64,000 nt of DNA from Cyanobium sp. CZS25K. Its GTDB lineage: Bacteria > Cyanobacteriota > Cyanobacteriia > PCC-6307 > Cyanobiaceae. The notes beneath the pieces are model-generated. The model ran no database searches. It had not been told where the DNA came from and saw nothing but the letters and a program-made list of their open reading frames with translations. The position numbers and the translations under genes are program-made. Positions within the stretch are counted from its first letter, which is position 1; each line of letters begins with the position of its first letter. The stretch covers positions 62,001 through 126,000 of the forward strand of contig JAUCZB010000006.1 in NCBI GenBank assembly GCA_030373325.1, written 5' to 3'. This document shows positions 9,761 through 33,277 of this stretch, one piece after another.

Positions 9761-10696
9761 GCCGGCATCCTGAATCGGCAGCAACCTTGCCATGCGGCCA
9801 CTGTGGTTCACGTGGGCATGCCAGTGGCCGGGCGGGGTGATGAAGGCCCCCCCCGGCTCCCAGTCGATGCGGGTGGGGTTGGCGATGGCGCCATCGGCAC
9901 CCAGCTCGGTGCCCACCAGGCTGTAACAGCCGGGGTCGCAGTCGATGATCAGGTCGAGGGCGACGGACTGGTGCCGGTGGGGTGGTTGAACGGCGCCGTC
10001 GGGCACCACCCCGAGCATGGCCCACAGGGTATGGGTGACGGTGCGGGTGGCGGGCAGATCGGCGTGGGCCAGGAGGATGCTCAGCCGGTTGGAGCGGGCG
10101 GCGCTGGGGTCGGCCAGCAGGCGCTGCAGGGCCTCCTCCTGGCGGGCGGCCGGATAGTGGACCGCACGGAAGCGGGGGCTGGCGGGCAACACCCCCAGGT
10201 AGCGCAGCAGGGGGGCGTCATGCACCCAGTAGAGAATGCTCTCCTCGCTGGCGTGCAGAAGCGGGTCGGCGCCGGCGGGCAGCACGAACAGATCGCCCCG
10301 GGCCCAGCTCAGGGCGAGGGGCTCGCCGAGCGTGTCGGCTGGACGCTCCAGCTGGCCGGTGCCACGGAGCACATAGAACAGGGAGCTGGTGGCGGCGGCC
10401 GCCGCTTTGAGCCCCTCGCCGGGCAGCAGCCTCAGGAAGTGGGCAGCCAGGCCAGGGCTGGTGGCAGGGCCCTCACAACCCAGGACCGCACTGAGATCCA
10501 GGGGCAACACCGCCGTGGGACCCCGGCCATGAAGCTCAGCACCCCAGCGGTGGTAGCGGATCGGTTCGGTCAGTCCGGGGCGTACCGGATTGGCCGCCTG
10601 GCGGTAGTCGAAGTAGCGGCCTGGCGACTGCCAGTCGTGGGCTGTGCCGGCGGCCCCTGCAGGAACCGTGGGGCTGGCGGCCTGGATCGGTTCCAT
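9698..10696 (-). CDS. Bicupin protein, gentisate 1,2-dioxygenase-like
   Basis: Two cupin-like regions (GDLFVLPAGADPLLHAS; PPHRHQSVALDLIIDCDPGCYSLVG...GGAFITPPGHWHAHVNHS). Confidence 0.65.
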   Translation of the reverse strand: MEPIQAASPTVPAGAAGTAHDWQSPGRYFDYRQAANPVRPGLTEPIRYHRWGAELHGRGPTAVLPLDLSAVLGCEGPATSPGLAAHFLRLLPGEGLKAAAAATSSLFYVLRGTGQLERPADTLGEPLALSWARGDLFVLPAGADPLLHASEESILYWVHDAPLLRYLGVLPASPRFRAVHYPAARQEEALQRLLADPSAARSNRLSILLAHADLPATRTVTHTLWAMLGVVPDGAVQPPHRHQSVALDLIIDCDPGCYSLVGTELGADGAIANPTRIDWEPGGAFITPPGHWHAHVNHSGRMARLLPIQDAGLHTHLRSLDIRFASGLGGVG

Positions 10697-10788
10697 GGGA
10701 GAGGTGGTTATGGGTGGGAAAGCCTATGGAATTTGCGACGCCATCGGCGTCTTCCTGCCGAACCGGGCCGCTCCTCTGGGATCCGGGC

Positions 10789-11064
10789 TCAGCCTCCGGC
10801 GACCGCCGGCACGATGCTCACCTCGTCACCGTCGCTGAGAACGGTGGCCTGGTTGTCGAGGAAGCGGATGTCCTCGCTGTTCACATAGAGATTGAGGAAG
10901 CGACGCAGCTTGCCGTTCTCATCGCAGAGGCGGGCCTGGATGCCGGGGTAGCGGCCTTCGAGGGCCTGGAGCAGGGCATCGATACTGGAGGCCTCAAGGC
11001 TGACGCTGGCCTCGTCGTTGGTGAATTTCTGCAGGGGGGTAGGGATCAGAACCTGGATGGCCAT
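10789..11064 (-). CDS. ThiS/MoaD-like ubiquitin-fold sulfur carrier protein
   Basis: 91 aa, [42 protein letters not shown]...[16 protein letters not shown] with C-terminal Gly-Gly. Confidence 0.85.
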
Positions 11065-11102
11065 GGAGAACGTCGGTGGAGCGAGGGAGGGACGGGGGGA
11101 AT

Positions 11103-12383
11103 TCAGGCCTTGGCGGCCGTGCTGGCGTGGGAGGCCTGGGCCTTCTCCCAGGCGGCATTGAAACTGGCCAGCTGGGGCTCGATCGTGAAGGGGGCGCCGA
11201 TGGAGGAGGCGATCGCTTCGGTGGTCTTGAGGCCGTTGCCGGTGATGTAGGCGACGGTGGTTTCGGAGGGGTCGATCTTTCCCTGTTCCACCAGTTTCTT
11301 GAGCACGGCGATGGTGGTGCCTCCGGCGGTTTCGGTGAACACCCCCTCCATCTCGGCCAGCAGCTTGATGCCGTCGATGATCTCCTCGTCGCTGACCGCG
11401 GCGATGCTGCCGCCGGTGCGGTTGGCGATATCGATGGCGTAGGGACCGTCGGCGGGGTTGCCGATGGCGATCGACTTGGCGATGGTGTTGGGCTTCACCG
11501 GGGTGATGAAGTCGCGGCCGGCGGCGAAGGCCTGGGCAATGGGGGAGCAGCCTTCAGCCTGGGCGCCACTGAAGCGCACCGGCTTCTCCTCGACGAGGCC
11601 CACCTTGATGAACTCGTCGAAGCCCTTGCGGATCTTGGTGAACAGGGAGCCGGAGGCCAGGGGCGCCACGATGTGGTCGGGAAGCTGCCAACCGAGCTGC
11701 TCGATCACTTCGTAGCCGAGGGTCTTGGAGCCCTCGGAGTAGTAAGGGCGCAGGTTGATGTTGACGAAGCCCCAGCCGTAGGTGTTGGCCACCTCGGAGC
11801 AGAGCCGGTTGACCTGGTCGTAGTTGCCCTTCACCGCCATCAGGGTGGGGTTGTAGACGAGGGTGCCCAGCACCTTGCCCAGTTCGAGATCGCTGGGGAT
11901 GAACACGCAGCACTCCAAACCGGCGTGGGCGGCGATCGCGGCGGTGGAATTGGCGAGGTTGCCGGTGGATGCGCAGCTGACGGTGGTGAAGCCCAGCTCG
12001 CGGGCCCGGGTGAGGGCCACCGACACGACCCGGTCCTTGAAGGACAGGGTCGGCATGTTGACGCCGTCGTTCTTGATGTAGAGAGAAGAAAGGCCGAGAC
12101 GCCTGGCGAGACGGTCCGCCTTGAGCAGAGGGGTGAAGCCGGTACCGACATCGATCGGTTCGCCCTCGACGGGAAGGAACTCCCGGTAGCGCCAGATCGA
12201 GGTGGGGCCGGCCTCGATGGTGGCGCGGCTCACCCGGCTGCGGATGGCGTCGTAGTCGTAGACCACCTCGAGCGGGCCGAAGCAGACGTCTTCGCAGACG
12301 TGACGCGCCCCGGCCTCATAGGGATGACCGCATTCCTTGCAGCGCAGGCCTGTGAAGGTGGAGCGGGAAAGGGTGGCGGTCAA
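11103..12383 (-). CDS. thrC: Threonine synthase
   Basis: N-terminal [45 protein letters not shown] (PLP Lys); [20 protein letters not shown] start at 12383 is a guess; the listed longer ORF is not supported upstream. Confidence 0.9.
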
Positions 12384-24357: not shown

Positions 24358-24432
24358 CGGCAGGGCGCCATGGACCGCCAGCGGCCGCTGTGGCTATGGC
24401 TGGTTTTCGGATCTGTTTGCCTCGGTGACGCC

Positions 24433-26802
24433 ATGACCGCCCCGAAGAAAGCCTCCGCTGCCGGCACGCCGGCCCTGCGGGGGCAGGCCCGCACGGTGAT
24501 CTACTGCCACGGCATCTCGAACATGCCTCCTGAGGGGGTGCTGCGCTCGGAGTGGGACCGCGCCCTGTTCGGCTCCGACCAGGGGGAGCGCACCCGCATG
24601 GCCTACTGGGTGGACCGGGAGCGCTACCCGGAGACCGCCGGCGTCTCCACCCGGGCCATCGGCGACGACCGGGCGACGCTGCAGATGGGGGCGGAGGCGC
24701 TGCTGGCCGCCTCGATCCGGGACAGCGACGACCGGGAGGAATCGGCGGCCTTCGTGGCCGCCGTGACGAAGCAACTGGAGGAGGCCGCCCAGACGGCGGC
24801 CCAGCGGGGGGCGCCGATGGGAGGGGCCGCGACGAAATCGATGGAGGTCAAGGGGCTGTGGAGCCCGGTGACGGCCCTGTTCACCCAGGCGTTCCTGGCC
24901 GATGTGAACGACTTCCTGTTCAACAAGACCAAGCGCACACGGATGGTGCAGACGGTGAAGGACCGGGTGACCACGGGAGGGGGGCCCTTCGTGGTGATCG
25001 GCCACAGCCAGGGGAGCATGGTCACCTATCAGGCGCTGATGGAACTGGGCGCTGCGCTGGAGGTGGACCTGTACCTCACGATCGGCTCCCCTCTGGGGCT
25101 GCCCCAGGTGACCGACGTGCTGCACAAGTGGTACGGCAAGACGTTGCCGATTCCGCCCGGGGTGAAGCGCTGGGTGAACATCGCCCAGGACGGCGACATC
25201 GTCTGCCTGGATCAGACCCTGGCCGATGAATACAGCGCCAGCGGAAAACCGCCGGTGCTGGATGAAAGGGTGCCGGGGTTCGTCTGGCCGCCCAGCAAGG
25301 CCCATTCCGCCAGCCGCTATCTGTCGCGTCAGTCGACCCAGGAAACGGTGATGGCGGCGCTGGAACGCTCCCGTTTCCAGCCGGTGAGCCCGATGACAGT
25401 GGCGCGCAATCTGGCCGATTCCCTGGATGCGGACGCCATGGTGCGGGTGCCGGTGCTGATCGAACTGCTGGAGCGCAACCTGCTGACGGGAAGCAGCTCA
25501 GGGGCATCCGCTGCCGGTGACGGGGGCGATTCGCTGCAGGGGGCCCGCCAGAAGGTGCTGGCGTGGATCGAGAAGAACGTGCTGAAGGATCCGATCACCG
25601 CCGAGACGGTGTTTCTGGAGGACCAGCTCGACCGCTACGTGTCGGTGAATCTGACCCGCGCCGAGGTGGAAACCCTGGCGGCCGCAATGAGCCAGCAGTA
25701 CGGCGCCGCCTCACCGGCCGTGTACCGGATGTTCAGCAACAGCAAGAAGAAGGCGCTGATCCGGGAGTCGATCCACACCGTGCAGGCCCGCACCGCCCAG
25801 CTGGGGTACAACGCCTGCGGCCAGGGGATCACCTGGGCCGTGCTCGACACGGGCATCGACAACCGCCATCCCCACTTCCACAACCCCGCCTTTGCCCCTG
25901 AGGGCACGATCGCCGCCGAATGGGACTGCACCGCAAGGGGGCCGGTGCAGCCGGGCAGTGGCAACGACGCCAACGGCCATGGCACCCATGTGGCCGGCAT
26001 CATCGCCGGGGGGCTGCAAGCGGTGGGGGGCGAGGGGGGGCCGGACATGCTGGCCATGGCCCCCAAGGCCCGGCTGGTGACCTACAAGGTGCTCGCCGAC
26101 AACGGCAGCGGCTACGACGCCTGGATCATCAAGGCGATCGACCACATCTGGAAACAGAACCAGGACGGGCGGCGCCTGGCGATCCAGGGGGTGAACCTGA
26201 GCCTGGGGGGCTCCTTCGATCCGGCCAGCTTCGGCTGCGGCGATTCACCGCTGTGCGCCTCCCTGCTGCGGCTGGTGCGCCAGGGGGTGCTGGTGGTGCT
26301 GGCGGCGGGCAACGAGGGCAGCGGCGACATCGTGGTGGATGGCTTCAACGCCACCCGCTCCTTTGATCTCTCGATCGGCGATCCCGCCAACCTGGAGGAG
26401 GCGATCGCCGTGGGCTCGGTGCACCCCACCCTGCCCCACCGCTACGGCACCTCCTATTTCTCCTCGCGGGGACCCACCGCCGACGGCCGCCTGAAGCCCG
26501 ATCTGGTGGGCCCGGGGGAGCAGATCCGCTCGTGTCGCAGCAGCAGTGATCCCAAACGCACCCCCACGCGCGGCAAGGGGGAAAGCGTCGATGGTCTGTA
26601 TGTCGCCCTCTCCGGCACGAGCATGGCGGCCCCCCACATCTCCGGCCTGCTGGCGGCCTTCCTGTCGGTGCGCACCGAGTTCATCGGCTATCCCGACCGG
26701 GTGAAGCAGATCCTGTTGAGCCACTGCACGGATCTCAAACGCGACCGCTACCACCAGGGGGCGGGCCTGCCGAATCTGTCGAAGATGCTGCTGGAAACAT
26801 GA
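24433..26802 (+). CDS. Fusion: N-terminal alpha/beta-hydrolase-like domain + C-terminal S8 subtilisin-like peptidase
   Basis: N-part TVIYCHGISN and FVVIGHSQGSMVTYQAL; C-part VLDTGIDNRHPHF, NGHGTHVAGIIAG, LAAGNEGSG, SGTSMAAPHISG: complete D/H/S subtilase triad. Alternative upstream start at 24370. Confidence 0.85.
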   Translation: MTAPKKASAAGTPALRGQARTVIYCHGISNMPPEGVLRSEWDRALFGSDQGERTRMAYWVDRERYPETAGVSTRAIGDDRATLQMGAEALLAASIRDSDDREESAAFVAAVTKQLEEAAQTAAQRGAPMGGAATKSMEVKGLWSPVTALFTQAFLADVNDFLFNKTKRTRMVQTVKDRVTTGGGPFVVIGHSQGSMVTYQALMELGAALEVDLYLTIGSPLGLPQVTDVLHKWYGKTLPIPPGVKRWVNIAQDGDIVCLDQTLADEYSASGKPPVLDERVPGFVWPPSKAHSASRYLSRQSTQETVMAALERSRFQPVSPMTVARNLADSLDADAMVRVPVLIELLERNLLTGSSSGASAAGDGGDSLQGARQKVLAWIEKNVLKDPITAETVFLEDQLDRYVSVNLTRAEVETLAAAMSQQYGAASPAVYRMFSNSKKKALIRESIHTVQARTAQLGYNACGQGITWAVLDTGIDNRHPHFHNPAFAPEGTIAAEWDCTARGPVQPGSGNDANGHGTHVAGIIAGGLQAVGGEGGPDMLAMAPKARLVTYKVLADNGSGYDAWIIKAIDHIWKQNQDGRRLAIQGVNLSLGGSFDPASFGCGDSPLCASLLRLVRQGVLVVLAAGNEGSGDIVVDGFNATRSFDLSIGDPANLEEAIAVGSVHPTLPHRYGTSYFSSRGPTADGRLKPDLVGPGEQIRSCRSSSDPKRTPTRGKGESVDGLYVALSGTSMAAPHISGLLAAFLSVRTEFIGYPDRVKQILLSHCTDLKRDRYHQGAGLPNLSKMLLET

Positions 26803-26919: not shown

Positions 26920-27942
26920 TTGCAAAAGCCTGACATTCCAAAAGACGAACAAGCCCGACTTGAGACACTTTGGACACTCGATATCCTGGATACCCTGCCT
27001 GAGGAACGTTTCGACCGGCTGACACGCATCGCCAAACGGATGTTCCGGGTGCCGATCGCGCTTGTCAGTCTTGTGGATGAGAACCGCCAGTGGTTCAAGT
27101 CGTGCATAGGCTTAAGCGCAAGCGAAACATCGCGCGACATTTCATTTTGCGGCCATGCGATTCTCGGTGACGAAGTTTTCATCATACCCAATGCCATAGA
27201 AGACCCACGATTCGCTGACAATCCCTTGGTTTTGGGTGAGCCGAATATTCGTTTTTATGTCGGATGCCCACTCTCTCTGAGTGACCACAAACTGGGAACT
27301 CTGTGCCTTATTGACCAGAAGCCAAGAAGCTTTGAAGATGAAGACGTCGAAGCACTGAAAGACCTTGCGTCCATGGTAGAGCGCGAACTCGCGGCCGTTC
27401 AACTGGCGACGTTGGACGAGCTGACCAAGATTTCAAATCGTCGGGGCTTTATGGTGCTGGCTCAGCACAGCCTGAGCCTCTGTGCCCGGCAGAAGATTCC
27501 CGCAGCACTGGTTTTCCTGGACCTGGACAGATTCAAGCCCATCAACGACAAGTTTGGACATGCGGAAGGCGATCGGGCATTAGTTGCATTTGCCAATCAG
27601 ATGAAGAGTAGCTTCCGGGATTCAGACCTTTTCGCGCGGCTGGGAGGCGACGAGTTTGTCGTATTGCTCACCAATACTTCGAAACAACAAGCAGAGGCAA
27701 TCATCGAGAAGTTCAATCGCTCATTGACAAGGAACTATCAAGAAGCATGTCGCGGGTACGCCATTACATTTTCCCATGGCATCGTGGAATTCGATCCGGA
27801 AAAACATCCTGCCGTCGAAGAGCTGCTGGCGAATGGTGACGCGCTGATGTATGAAGTAAAAAGAGCAAAGCGGTGCTATCTCAAGCCAATGGGGATTCTG
27901 ACTGCTTCAGAGACCCTACCCAACCGATCGCTTCTGCCTTGA
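26920..27942 (+). CDS. GAF-domain diguanylate cyclase (GGDEF)
   Basis: GAF region (RMFRVPIALVSLVDENRQWFKS...CGHAIL) then RDSDLFARLGGDEF: intact GGDEF with RxxD I-site 5 aa upstream; TTG start. Confidence 0.9.
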   Translation: MQKPDIPKDEQARLETLWTLDILDTLPEERFDRLTRIAKRMFRVPIALVSLVDENRQWFKSCIGLSASETSRDISFCGHAILGDEVFIIPNAIEDPRFADNPLVLGEPNIRFYVGCPLSLSDHKLGTLCLIDQKPRSFEDEDVEALKDLASMVERELAAVQLATLDELTKISNRRGFMVLAQHSLSLCARQKIPAALVFLDLDRFKPINDKFGHAEGDRALVAFANQMKSSFRDSDLFARLGGDEFVVLLTNTSKQQAEAIIEKFNRSLTRNYQEACRGYAITFSHGIVEFDPEKHPAVEELLANGDALMYEVKRAKRCYLKPMGILTASETLPNRSLLP

Positions 27943-30253: not shown

Positions 30254-33115
30254 TCATAACCCGGGAATCGGTCCGCCATCGCCGGTGAGTTGCCAGGCGG
30301 CCCAGAATTTGTGGTCGGCCCAGTCCGGCTCTAATGGGTTGCTGCGGAACTCCTCCTGCACCGTCGTCAACGCGTCCATGCGACCCCTTCCCTGTTTGAG
30401 CAGGGCGACGTAACGCTGCATGAACGCTGCCGTGGCGTCATCATCCACTTTCCACAGCGACAGCAGGGTGGAGCGGGCGCCGGCCACGGTGAGGGCCCGC
30501 TGCAGGCCGTAGACCCCTTCGCCGGTCTGCAGAATTCCGGAGGCGGTGTCGCAGGCGGAGAGCACCACCAGCTCGGTGCCATCGAGCTGCAACTGGGCCG
30601 CCTCCTTGGCGGTGAGATAGCCGTCATCGTCGGCCGTGCTGGTGGCCATGCCGGTGGCCGCGCCCTGGCCGGACAGGCGGTGGCGGTTGGCGCCCGCCAG
30701 CACGATCCCGCTGCTGAGCAGCGGGTCGCCGCTGCTGCTGCCTGGCATGTCCTGGGAGGTCTGGGCGCCTGGCCCTGTGAAGAATCCATGGCTGGCGATG
30801 TGCAACACCCTGGGGCCGCGCGCCTGTTGCAACACGGCTGTGGTGGCGGCAGATCCCAGATACAACGCCGCACCCAACCGCTCGGCGATCCAGCGGCCCT
30901 CCTCGGCGGTGGCGAGCAAGGGTTGCCAGGCCCCAGGGCCACCGAAATCAGGGGCAGCGAGCACCAGGGACCGCTGGCCGCCTGGCCCGGGGTTTCGCAG
31001 GCTCAGCAGATCACGACCGCTGGTGAGGATCCGCAGCTGCACGCGCTGCCCCAGGGTGGCCGTGGATTCGGCCTCGGCCCCGCCTGGGCCAGCAGCGGCA
31101 GCCGGCAGGGCAGTGAAGGGGATGCGGCTCAGCTCGCCATCGGGTGAAACGAACCACTGCCGCCGCCCCACCAGCTGGGGCATCAGGGGCCCCAGCACCT
31201 TCTGGCTCACCCGGGCCCAGAACGGGCCAGCGGGTCGATTGCGGGCCAGGCTTTCGGCCAGGGCCTGCTGGATCAGGGGATCGGTGTCAGCAGCCAGGCC
31301 GAGGTCTACCGCACGGGTCGCACCATCGGGAAACAGCAGCATCGCCAGATAGCGCGCTTCCCCCCAGCTCCTGGCCTCCGGTTGACGCGCGTCGTAGGGG
31401 CGGAAGCGCTGGAATTCGATCAGCACCCCATCAGCGGGCAGGGCAGCGGCCACCTGGGCGGCGTCCACCAGCCGCGGGGTGAGGGCCGGCAGCTGGCGGT
31501 AGAGCTCCTGCTCCACCCGATCACGCTCCTGCTGCAGCGTCTGCCGCTGAGGTTCACTGAGGTTCACATCGGCCAGTCGGGCCGTCAGGGCCGTGAGCTG
31601 GCTCACCAGGAGTTGCTGGGCAGAGGAACCTCGCCCGAGCTGGGCCTGGTGCCGTTCGATGTCCTGCAGCAGGCCATGGCGGTTCAAGCGCGTGAACAGG
31701 GCCAGGGAGGCTCCGTCAGGAGCTTTGGCCACCAGCGAGTAGGGGATCTCCCAGACATTGCCGAGAGCCTTGATCTGCTCCTGCCGCCGGGCCTGGGGAA
31801 GCAGCGGGGCCTCCCGCTGGAGAAACAGGGACTGGCTGCCGATGCCGCGGCGCAGCGGGGGCTCGGCCCTGGCGACGGCGCCCTGGCTCAGGTACGCCTT
31901 CGCCAGGTTGTTGAGGCTGAGGGCGGTCGTGGGGTGATCGGGCCCCAGCGCCTGCTCATAGATCGCCAGGGAGCGGAGGAACAGGGGCTCAGCTTTGGCG
32001 CCAGAACCCTGAAGACGGAGGAGCTCCGCCAGGTTGTTGAGGCTGCCGGCGGTATCGGGGTGCTTGGGCCCCAGGGCTTTCTCCCTGATCGCCAGTGCGC
32101 GGCGGTGGAGCGGCTCGGCTTTGGCAGAAGCCCCCTGGTTGTCGTACAGCACCGCCAGGTTGTTCAGGCTGGTGGCGGTGATGGGGTGCCCGGGACCCAG
32201 CATGTTCTCGTTGATCGCCAGGGCGCTCAGATAGAGAGGTTCTGCCTTGGCGAAGGCGCCCTGGTTGTCGTAGAGCGCCGCGAGGTTGTTGAGGCTGGTG
32301 GCGGTATCGGGGTGGTCGTCACCCAGCACCTTCTGCTTGATGGCCAGGCTGCGGCGCAGAAGGGGCTCAGCCTTCGCGTAGGCGCCCTGGCTGATGTACA
32401 GCGCCGCAAGGTTATTGAGGCTGGTGGCGGTGTCGGGGTGCTCGGATCCCATCGCCTTCTCCCTGATGGCCAGGGCGCGAAGGTATAGGGACTCGGCCTT
32501 AGCGTAATCACCCTGGCTGCTGTACAGCAGCCCGAGGTTATTGAGGCCGAGGGCGAGGCCAGGGTGCTCAGGCCCCAGAGCCTTCTCGGCGATCACCAGA
32601 GCGCGCAGGTAGAGGGCTTCGGCCTTGGCATCACTGCTCTGGTTGTCGTACAGCCAGGCGAGGTTATGGAGGCTGAGGGCGGTAAAGGGATGGTCCGGCC
32701 CCAGGATCCTGGTTCTGATCGCCAAGGCGCGAAGCAGCAGGGGCTCGGCCTTGGCAAAGGCGCGCTCCTTGATGTAAAGCAGCCCTAGGTTGTTGAGGCT
32801 GGCGGCGGTATCGGGATGGTCGGGTCCCTGCGCCTTCTCACGCCAGGCCAGCACCTGTTCCCATACCGTCGCCGCCTTTCCATCGTCTCCCTTGGCTTCC
32901 AGGGCGTTGGCCTGGTCGATCCACTCCCACACCTGCGCAGGGATCTGGGGATAGCGCTCGCCCAACGGCTGGGCCAGCCACTCCTGCAGACGTGGAACCG
33001 GTGGCTTGCCGTAGCGATTGGCGGCAGCCGACTGCGGCCCATCGGCCAGCAGCAGCAAGGCCAGCGCAGTTCCCCACCGGAACAGAGCCATGAAGGAGGG
33101 ACCGGACCGGGTCAT
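30254..33115 (-). CDS. Exported TPR-CHAT protein (caspase-fold putative protease)
   Basis: Hydrophobic leader [24 protein letters not shown]; about eight 42-aa kinesin-light-chain-like TPRs ([38 protein letters not shown]); CHAT His/Cys motifs [10 protein letters not shown] and [12 protein letters not shown]. Confidence 0.9.
   Translation of the reverse strand: [953 protein letters not shown]
31850..32835 (-). repeat. Tandem 126-bp (42-aa) TPR-coding repeats
   Basis: About 8 consecutive units with period 42 aa, several near-identical over long stretches. Confidence 0.85.
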
Positions 33116-33277
33116 GGGGGTTCCCAGCAGCCCCACCAACGAACGTCTCCGGTCTGTCTGCACGGGGTCCACCGTTACCGGAAGCCGTCTCATCGTCTCA
33201 AGGCCCCGTGCGGTGCCGCAACGGATCGATCACCGGGACACCTCTACGGTGCAGCCACAACACTGCGGCGCCAGACA

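Follow-up and report, generated by a model that had tools for sequence, protein, structure and literature searches.

An alpha/beta-hydrolase–subtilase fusion in Cyanobium that may be a one-gene version of protease–hydrolase effector pairs

Bacterial hydrolases that are encoded together with a protease have been described. In Hachiman and AVAST, MBL enzymes are pro-nucleases which are opened by a trypsin partner, and versions with a caspase were also found (Tuck et al. 2025, PMC12799240). Pairs of an MBL pro-nuclease with a trypsin or a caspase occur in Hachiman, AVAST, Lamassu, DRT, and canu (PMC12799240). Neither subtilisin nor lipase is mentioned in the text of that paper (PMC12799240). Kaur et al. 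(2020, PMC7159879) noted an alpha/beta-hydrolase (ABH) gene next to every caspase-type VMAP, and the ABH and the caspase were inferred to work together. The same paper describes NucA-trypsin systems with an occasional S8 peptidase; subtilisin is mentioned once, beside NucA and not with an ABH (PMC7159879). Because pairs of MBL nuclease with trypsin or caspase and of ABH with caspase have been published, the theme is not without precedent. An S8 version and a single-chain ABH-S8 form were not found in the open-access papers searched, and absence from these is no proof of being undescribed. An earlier note on this DNA named no described system with this architecture; protease–hydrolase pairs, however, are described (PMC12799240, PMC7159879).

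The gene studied here lies in a stretch of 64,000 nucleotides (the window) from the 3.1 Mb genome of Cyanobium sp. CZS25K. Its product consists of an N-terminal ABH domain, a linker with a pro-domain-like stretch (approximately residues 396-450), and a C-terminal S8 peptidase, in this order. The features are, in window coordinates:

24433..26802, + strand: ABH-S8 fusion gene, 789 aa (ORF, domain searches, full-length relatives in several phyla)
24487..25347, + strand: ABH domain, residues 19-305, with oxyanion motif VIYCHG (22-27) and elbow GHSQGS (Pfam ABH families, AF2 model with Foldseek, profile match)
24631..24882, + strand: ABH lid insertion, residues 67-150 (helical, fast-evolving, partly low-confidence)
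25006..25008, + strand: codon of S192, predicted ABH nucleophile (invariant in fused and stand-alone relatives)
25195..25197, + strand: codon of D255, predicted ABH acid (invariant in fused and stand-alone relatives)
25303..25305, + strand: codon of H291, predicted ABH base (invariant in fused and stand-alone relatives)
25348..25617, + strand: fast-evolving linker, residues 306-395 (pN/pS 0.57; low pLDDT at 349-365 and 386-397)
25618..25782, + strand: stretch resembling a pro-domain, residues 396-450, RYVxxxLTxxE...RxW/FxN...S (common to fused and unfused S8 relatives)
25783..26799, + strand: S8 peptidase catalytic domain, residues 451-789, with D472, H516, N627, and S730 (Pfam PF00082, PADLOC, invariant residues)

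The frame is already open from an ATG at 24370, upstream of 24433. The N-terminus of the relatives, MTAPKK, aligns with position 24433, and this supports the start chosen here. The frame runs for 815 codons without a stop; the longest such run in 200 random 64-kb sequences of matching composition was 546. The earlier note had described one uninterrupted ORF with two complete active sites in a single chain, and both points were borne out: full-length relatives exist in several phyla, the motifs that it quoted (VIYCHGISN, VIGHSQGS, DTGID, NGHGTHVAG, AAGNEG, SGTSMAAPH) are all present, and the two predicted sites are S192/D255/H291 and D472/H516/S730.

By its GxSxG nucleophile elbow, its Ser-Asp-His triad, and its predicted fold, the N-terminal domain was confirmed as a member of the alpha/beta-hydrolase superfamily. 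The S192/D255/H291 triad is invariant in alignments of fused and stand-alone relatives at 22-42% identity. In the window protein, Pfam ABH families match residues 167-265, all of them below threshold. When 21 relatives were scanned singly, ABH families were found in every one (Abhydrolase_6, PGAP1, Tle3, and LCAT-like families recur), likewise below the gathering cut-off. The best solved match of the ABH profile is group XV phospholipase A2 (E 0.0046). An AF2 model of the N-domain alone (pTM 0.77) has a strand and helix order that fits an ABH core with a long helical insertion. Foldseek searches with this model returned mostly lipases and other ABHs, with modest E-values, low TM-scores, and one match with E <0.001. 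Because the Foldseek matches are modest, it is the combination of motifs, invariant triad, and weak but unanimous family matches that carries the assignment. On sequence and model the domain is lipase-type, and lipase/esterase activity is predicted. Its lid insertion is modelled with pLDDT <50 at model residues 59-70 and 113-133 (protein residues 72-83 and 126-146), has a pN/pS of 0.47 in cyanobacteria, and over residues 81-140 shares approximately 10% identity with distant relatives from other phyla. The lid is possibly a gate.

Residues 396-450 follow the motif RYVxxxLTxxE...RxW/FxN...S...A...G.xIxWAV.D[TS]G in fused and unfused relatives. A BLASTP alignment with a Streptomyces S8 peptidase reaches into this pre-catalytic part, from residue 404, and the pN/pS of the stretch before S8 is 0.31 in cyanobacteria. 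AF2 modelled the whole chain with low confidence (pLDDT 64), showing strand-helix-strand elements at 339-440; as the model is poor, the docking of the domains is unreadable from it. A profile search by sequence found no significant structural relative of the stretch before S8. The assignment of residues 396-450 as an I9-type pro-domain was for this reason dropped, and the stretch is described as no more than pro-domain-like.

By sequence, the C-terminal domain is a Peptidase S8 (subtilase) with an Asp-His-Ser triad and an oxyanion Asn. Pfam Peptidase_S8 (PF00082) matches residues 463-777 with an E-value of 6.6e-46, and D472, H516, N627, and S730 are invariant in the alignment of fused relatives. 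The PADLOC profile "subtilase" (PDLC03014), which comes without a cut-off or a system name and was not traced in the papers searched, gives 200 bits. The protein does not qualify as a T7SS mycosin (TIGR03921: 81.5 bits, cut-off 278.75).

Unfused relatives of the S8 domain were surveyed in plasmids, in samples of 349 Pseudomonadota, 247 Acidobacteriota, and 200 Gemmatimonadota genomes, and in one family member (L092), which yielded 22 loci. A separate hydrolase gene lies directly beside the S8 gene in 21 of them, often at a spacing of approximately 10 bp. Thirteen loci have S8 followed by a separate ABH of approximately 440 aa (L040, L041, L042, L077, L078, L083-L088, L091, L092), which in L086 is in an overlapping frame. 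In eight loci the neighbour is an MBL gene (L043, L044, L074, L075, L079, L080, L089, L090); patatin is also present in five of these MBL loci, and a Tle1-type phospholipase in L043. One locus (L076) has neither ABH nor MBL. The MBL partners of S8 are relatives of the protease-activated pro-nucleases of AVAST, Lamassu, and DRT; the two that were tested scored 177-178 bits to PADLOC LmuA, and Avs1a and RTasMBL matched too. In an all-against-all comparison of neighbours (approximately 8 kb on each side), the main recurring families were S8, ABH, MBL, and patatin; the other clusters were one of six members at scattered positions and a few of two or three. No separate ABH or MBL was seen beside the fused gene in the fused loci inspected.

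Some of these loci have additional features. On a Miltoncostaea plasmid (L043, 5512-9650), S8, MBL, and Tle1-type phospholipase genes are consecutive, so that two effector-type hydrolases accompany one protease. In L079 a second S8 gene (10232-12142) is found approximately 4 kb downstream of the patatin-S8-MBL set. The fused ABH and the separate one of the S8 operons were treated as two families, and their homology was rejected: there was no BLASTP similarity, and a profile comparison matched at the elbow only (probability 18%). As no alignment of the two families extends past the nucleophile elbow, the pairing with S8 may have arisen separately. In the cyanobacterial phylum sample, distant ABH relatives (345 aa) were found on the same strand as, and downstream of, a more distant S8 gene (L216, L218), possibly a further S8-ABH pairing.

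Stand-alone relatives of the ABH domain were gathered by a search with the N-domain only and by a profile survey. The ABH is found with trypsin in Agrobacterium (L177), R. etli (L179), and Sinorhizobium (L184), and beside a trypsin with a TPR-S sensor domain in L205. It is found with caspase in L182, L183, and L206, with caspase-TPR-PIN in Leptolyngbya (L185), with CHAT in L186, and with VMAP and an AAA ATPase in Streptomyces (L180). An operon in S. meliloti (L176/L181) contains trypsin-NucA, ABH, PAS/GAF, CHAT, and S8. On the S. meliloti plasmid this operon (L181, 4795-21038) also includes another trypsin-like peptidase, so three protease classes occur together. In the Pseudomonadota survey, the three closest stand-alone ABHs (E <1e-45) all have protease neighbours, whereas eight weaker ones (E 1e-23 to 1e-39) have none. 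Taken more widely, the weaker ABH relatives in Pseudomonadota (E approximately 1e-22 to 1e-39) are mostly without them. Two Agrobacterium plasmid loci, one with ABH and trypsin (L177, 5992-8514) and one with caspase and ABH (L182, 3238-5870), have like flanks with a ParB-like protein and a DEAD/DEAH helicase; the protease was swapped at apparently one site, as expected of exchangeable cargo.

The best explanation of the ABH-S8 protein is that it is a one-gene version of a protease–hydrolase effector pair (probability roughly 0.55). The protein is probably an effector made in one piece and controlled by its protease, and not an unusual digestive enzyme, because relatives of both halves recur in other bacteria as protease and hydrolase pairs, some of them in or beside known immune-like systems. 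The two halves are very likely functionally coupled: a single fused clade, together with adjacency elsewhere for both halves, is a classical sign of joint function. The balance leans towards the protease acting on the hydrolase and not the reverse. Since the S8 subfamily pairs with pro-nuclease-type MBL and the ABH with conflict-system proteases, control of the hydrolase by the protease is the simplest reading. The neighbourhoods of the unfused relatives of both halves lend support to the coupling proposed in the earlier note, "a protease regulating or releasing a lipase". A role in conflict or against phages has about even odds. Against a defence role, the Cyanobium gene sits at one fixed place by housekeeping genes and is kept in 8 of 11 sampled genomes of the genus, unlike fast-turnover defence cargo.

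Most Cyanobium relatives share the left flank, where phosphoribulokinase, leuB, lpxD, and polysaccharide deacetylase precede the fusion gene, and the right flank is variable. The description of the region as accessory-looking therefore fits its right side, but the left flank is a conserved core block. The immediate neighbours in the window are the polysaccharide deacetylase and a GAF-GGDEF gene. The deacetylase neighbour was not found in strains lacking the fusion gene, and no clean empty site was shown. Neither a conserved sensor gene accompanying the fusion gene nor, in the window, a defence gene adjoining it was found, except for a TPR-CHAT gene 3.4 kb away. This downstream gene (30254-33193, - strand; CHAT E 1.9e-59) encodes a candidate caspase-like protease. 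The GAF-GGDEF gene (26920-27942, + strand) has a GC of 0.52 and a GC3 of 0.56, compared with approximately 0.69 and 0.90 around it, is without a match in the loci of the 23 relatives compared, and looks recently acquired.

The nearest relatives of the window protein are in Cyanobium and freshwater Synechococcus, where the whole chain is 78-87% conserved. Full-length relatives at approximately 45% occur in Acidobacteriota, Gemmatimonadota, Pseudomonadota, and another cyanobacterium. Within cyanobacteria the pN/pS is 0.11-0.27 for the ABH core and 0.20 for S8, and purifying selection on both enzyme parts is confirmed. Of 201 genomes of the family, 19 have a match to the gene; of the 11 in the genus, eight do, one of them with a fragment only. 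Elsewhere among cyanobacteria, a sample of 244 contained one more full-length copy. Some cyanobacterial copies are truncated or frame-broken (L026, 7983-8597; G005; L019), so the gene can be lost: L026 retains the last 170 codons adjoining lpxD, G005 has a similar fragment, and the Synechococcus WH 5701 copy is split across two frames.

The best surviving alternative is an intracellular bifunctional housekeeping hydrolase that would be maintained together with the lpxD/deacetylase block and serve protein/lipid turnover or the quality control of envelope lipids; the fusion would then merely co-regulate two degradative enzymes. Such an enzyme would suit the fixed locus by prk-leuB-lpxD-deacetylase, the normal GC and GC3, and the purifying selection. 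However, the absence of the gene from most of the family and nearly all other cyanobacteria argues against it, as do the broken copies (L026, G005, WH 5701) and the pairing of the relatives with effector-type hydrolases and conflict-system proteases, which together make it unlikely.

In the S8 tree, for which the root is arbitrary, every fused copy falls in one clade (97/100), in which the Cyanobium copies have their closest relative in a gene of the Gemmatimonadota sample (94/84). The GC and GC3 of the fusion gene match the host. The tree, the constant left flank, and the host-like composition point to an old transfer followed by vertical inheritance with some loss. Horizontal spread, which had been suggested from the setting of the gene, is thus upheld between phyla, but a recent acquisition by this strain is not supported. 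Among plasmid and phage records, none covers 80% of the full chain. Two IMG/VR contigs cover at least 80%, with the gene beyond a tmRNA gene at a prophage edge. The ABH-S8 gene adjoins the tmRNA gene in L096, L097, and L025, and the two IMG/VR contigs have a phage integrase across the tmRNA. A Pseudoxanthomonas genome has the gene with the same tmRNA neighbour. Given this neighbour and the tmRNA-edge position, the IMG/VR copies were rejected as phage cargo and are probably the host flank of a prophage inserted at ssrA.

Across phyla the S8 domain is the best conserved part (identity 56-61%, compared with 35-43% for the ABH core, residues 141-305). This would agree with a reverse order of action, where the ABH would act as the sensor or the brake, for instance by binding a lipid or acyl group or by cleaving it, and S8 is the executioner degrading cell or phage proteins; S8 proteases are also the named S component of IetAS and a PADLOC-listed defence protein. 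However, the partners of this S8 subfamily also include MBL pro-nucleases, which have relatives that are substrates of their protease (PMC12799240), and effector-looking patatin and Tle1-type enzymes, and the ABH triad is invariant. The reverse order is rated unlikely, slightly below the housekeeping enzyme. A chance fusion or an assembly artefact joining two adjacent genes, each fold being common alone, is already refuted by independent full-length copies: the full-length chain recurs in independent assemblies from several phyla, the fused copies are a single monophyletic clade, and pN/pS is low.

If the protein is a one-gene protease–hydrolase pair, the chain would work in the cytoplasm as a zymogen, and the pro-domain-like stretch before S8 would keep the protease quiet. 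On triggering, S8 would cut its own junction (around 443-460) and/or the disordered linker or the lid of the hydrolase. A cut in the linker or at the junction of pro-domain and S8 would split the chain into the same parts as in two-gene systems, and it would free and un-gate the lipase/esterase domain. The freed ABH would then hydrolyse an ester substrate, most likely a membrane lipid, and this could stop or kill the cell, as in abortive-infection systems.

A broader and more tentative proposal is that, besides trypsins and caspases, S8 subtilases form a third class of proteases gating effector hydrolases in bacterial immunity, and that the window protein is a minimal version in a single chain, which would release a membrane-attacking lipase by cutting itself. 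If true, picocyanobacteria would own a one-gene death module. The fusion would extend the published idea of protease-switched effector hydrolases by a new protease class and by an effector of lipase type, both in one polypeptide. With two separately mutable active sites in one gene, it is an unusually simple test case for self-cleavage, activation order, and toxicity. The network of swaps, with S8, trypsin, caspase, and CHAT on one side and the two ABH families, MBL, patatin, and Tle1 on the other, would help to find further uncharacterised systems.

Among known families and systems, the nearest solved or Pfam relatives of the N-domain are group XV phospholipase A2/LCAT and PGAP1/Tle3/DDHD-like ABHs, but the domain is below every curated cut-off and no described family reaches threshold. 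IetAS (AAA ATPase with S8 peptidase) shares the S8 peptidase, with a weak profile match; NCBIfam NF042956 scores 23.9 bits against a cut-off of 900, and no AAA ATPase is among the flanking genes tested. Unlike the VMAP ternary (vWA-MoxR) systems, the window gene has no VMAP, MoxR, or vWA neighbour, and its peptidase is an S8 and is fused. As in these systems and in the NucA-trypsin-S8 systems, the stand-alone relatives of its ABH adjoin VMAP, caspase, CHAT, and TPR-S-trypsin. The pairs of Tuck et al. differ in that the window protease is an S8 and not trypsin-like or a caspase, the hydrolase is a lipase-like ABH, both are in one chain, and the gene is without a neighbouring MBL, helicase, STAND, SMC, or RT. 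In common with the MBL pairs of Tuck et al., a protease is encoded with a hydrolase effector, and the sister S8 genes adjoin MBLs that match LmuA, Avs1a, and RTasMBL.
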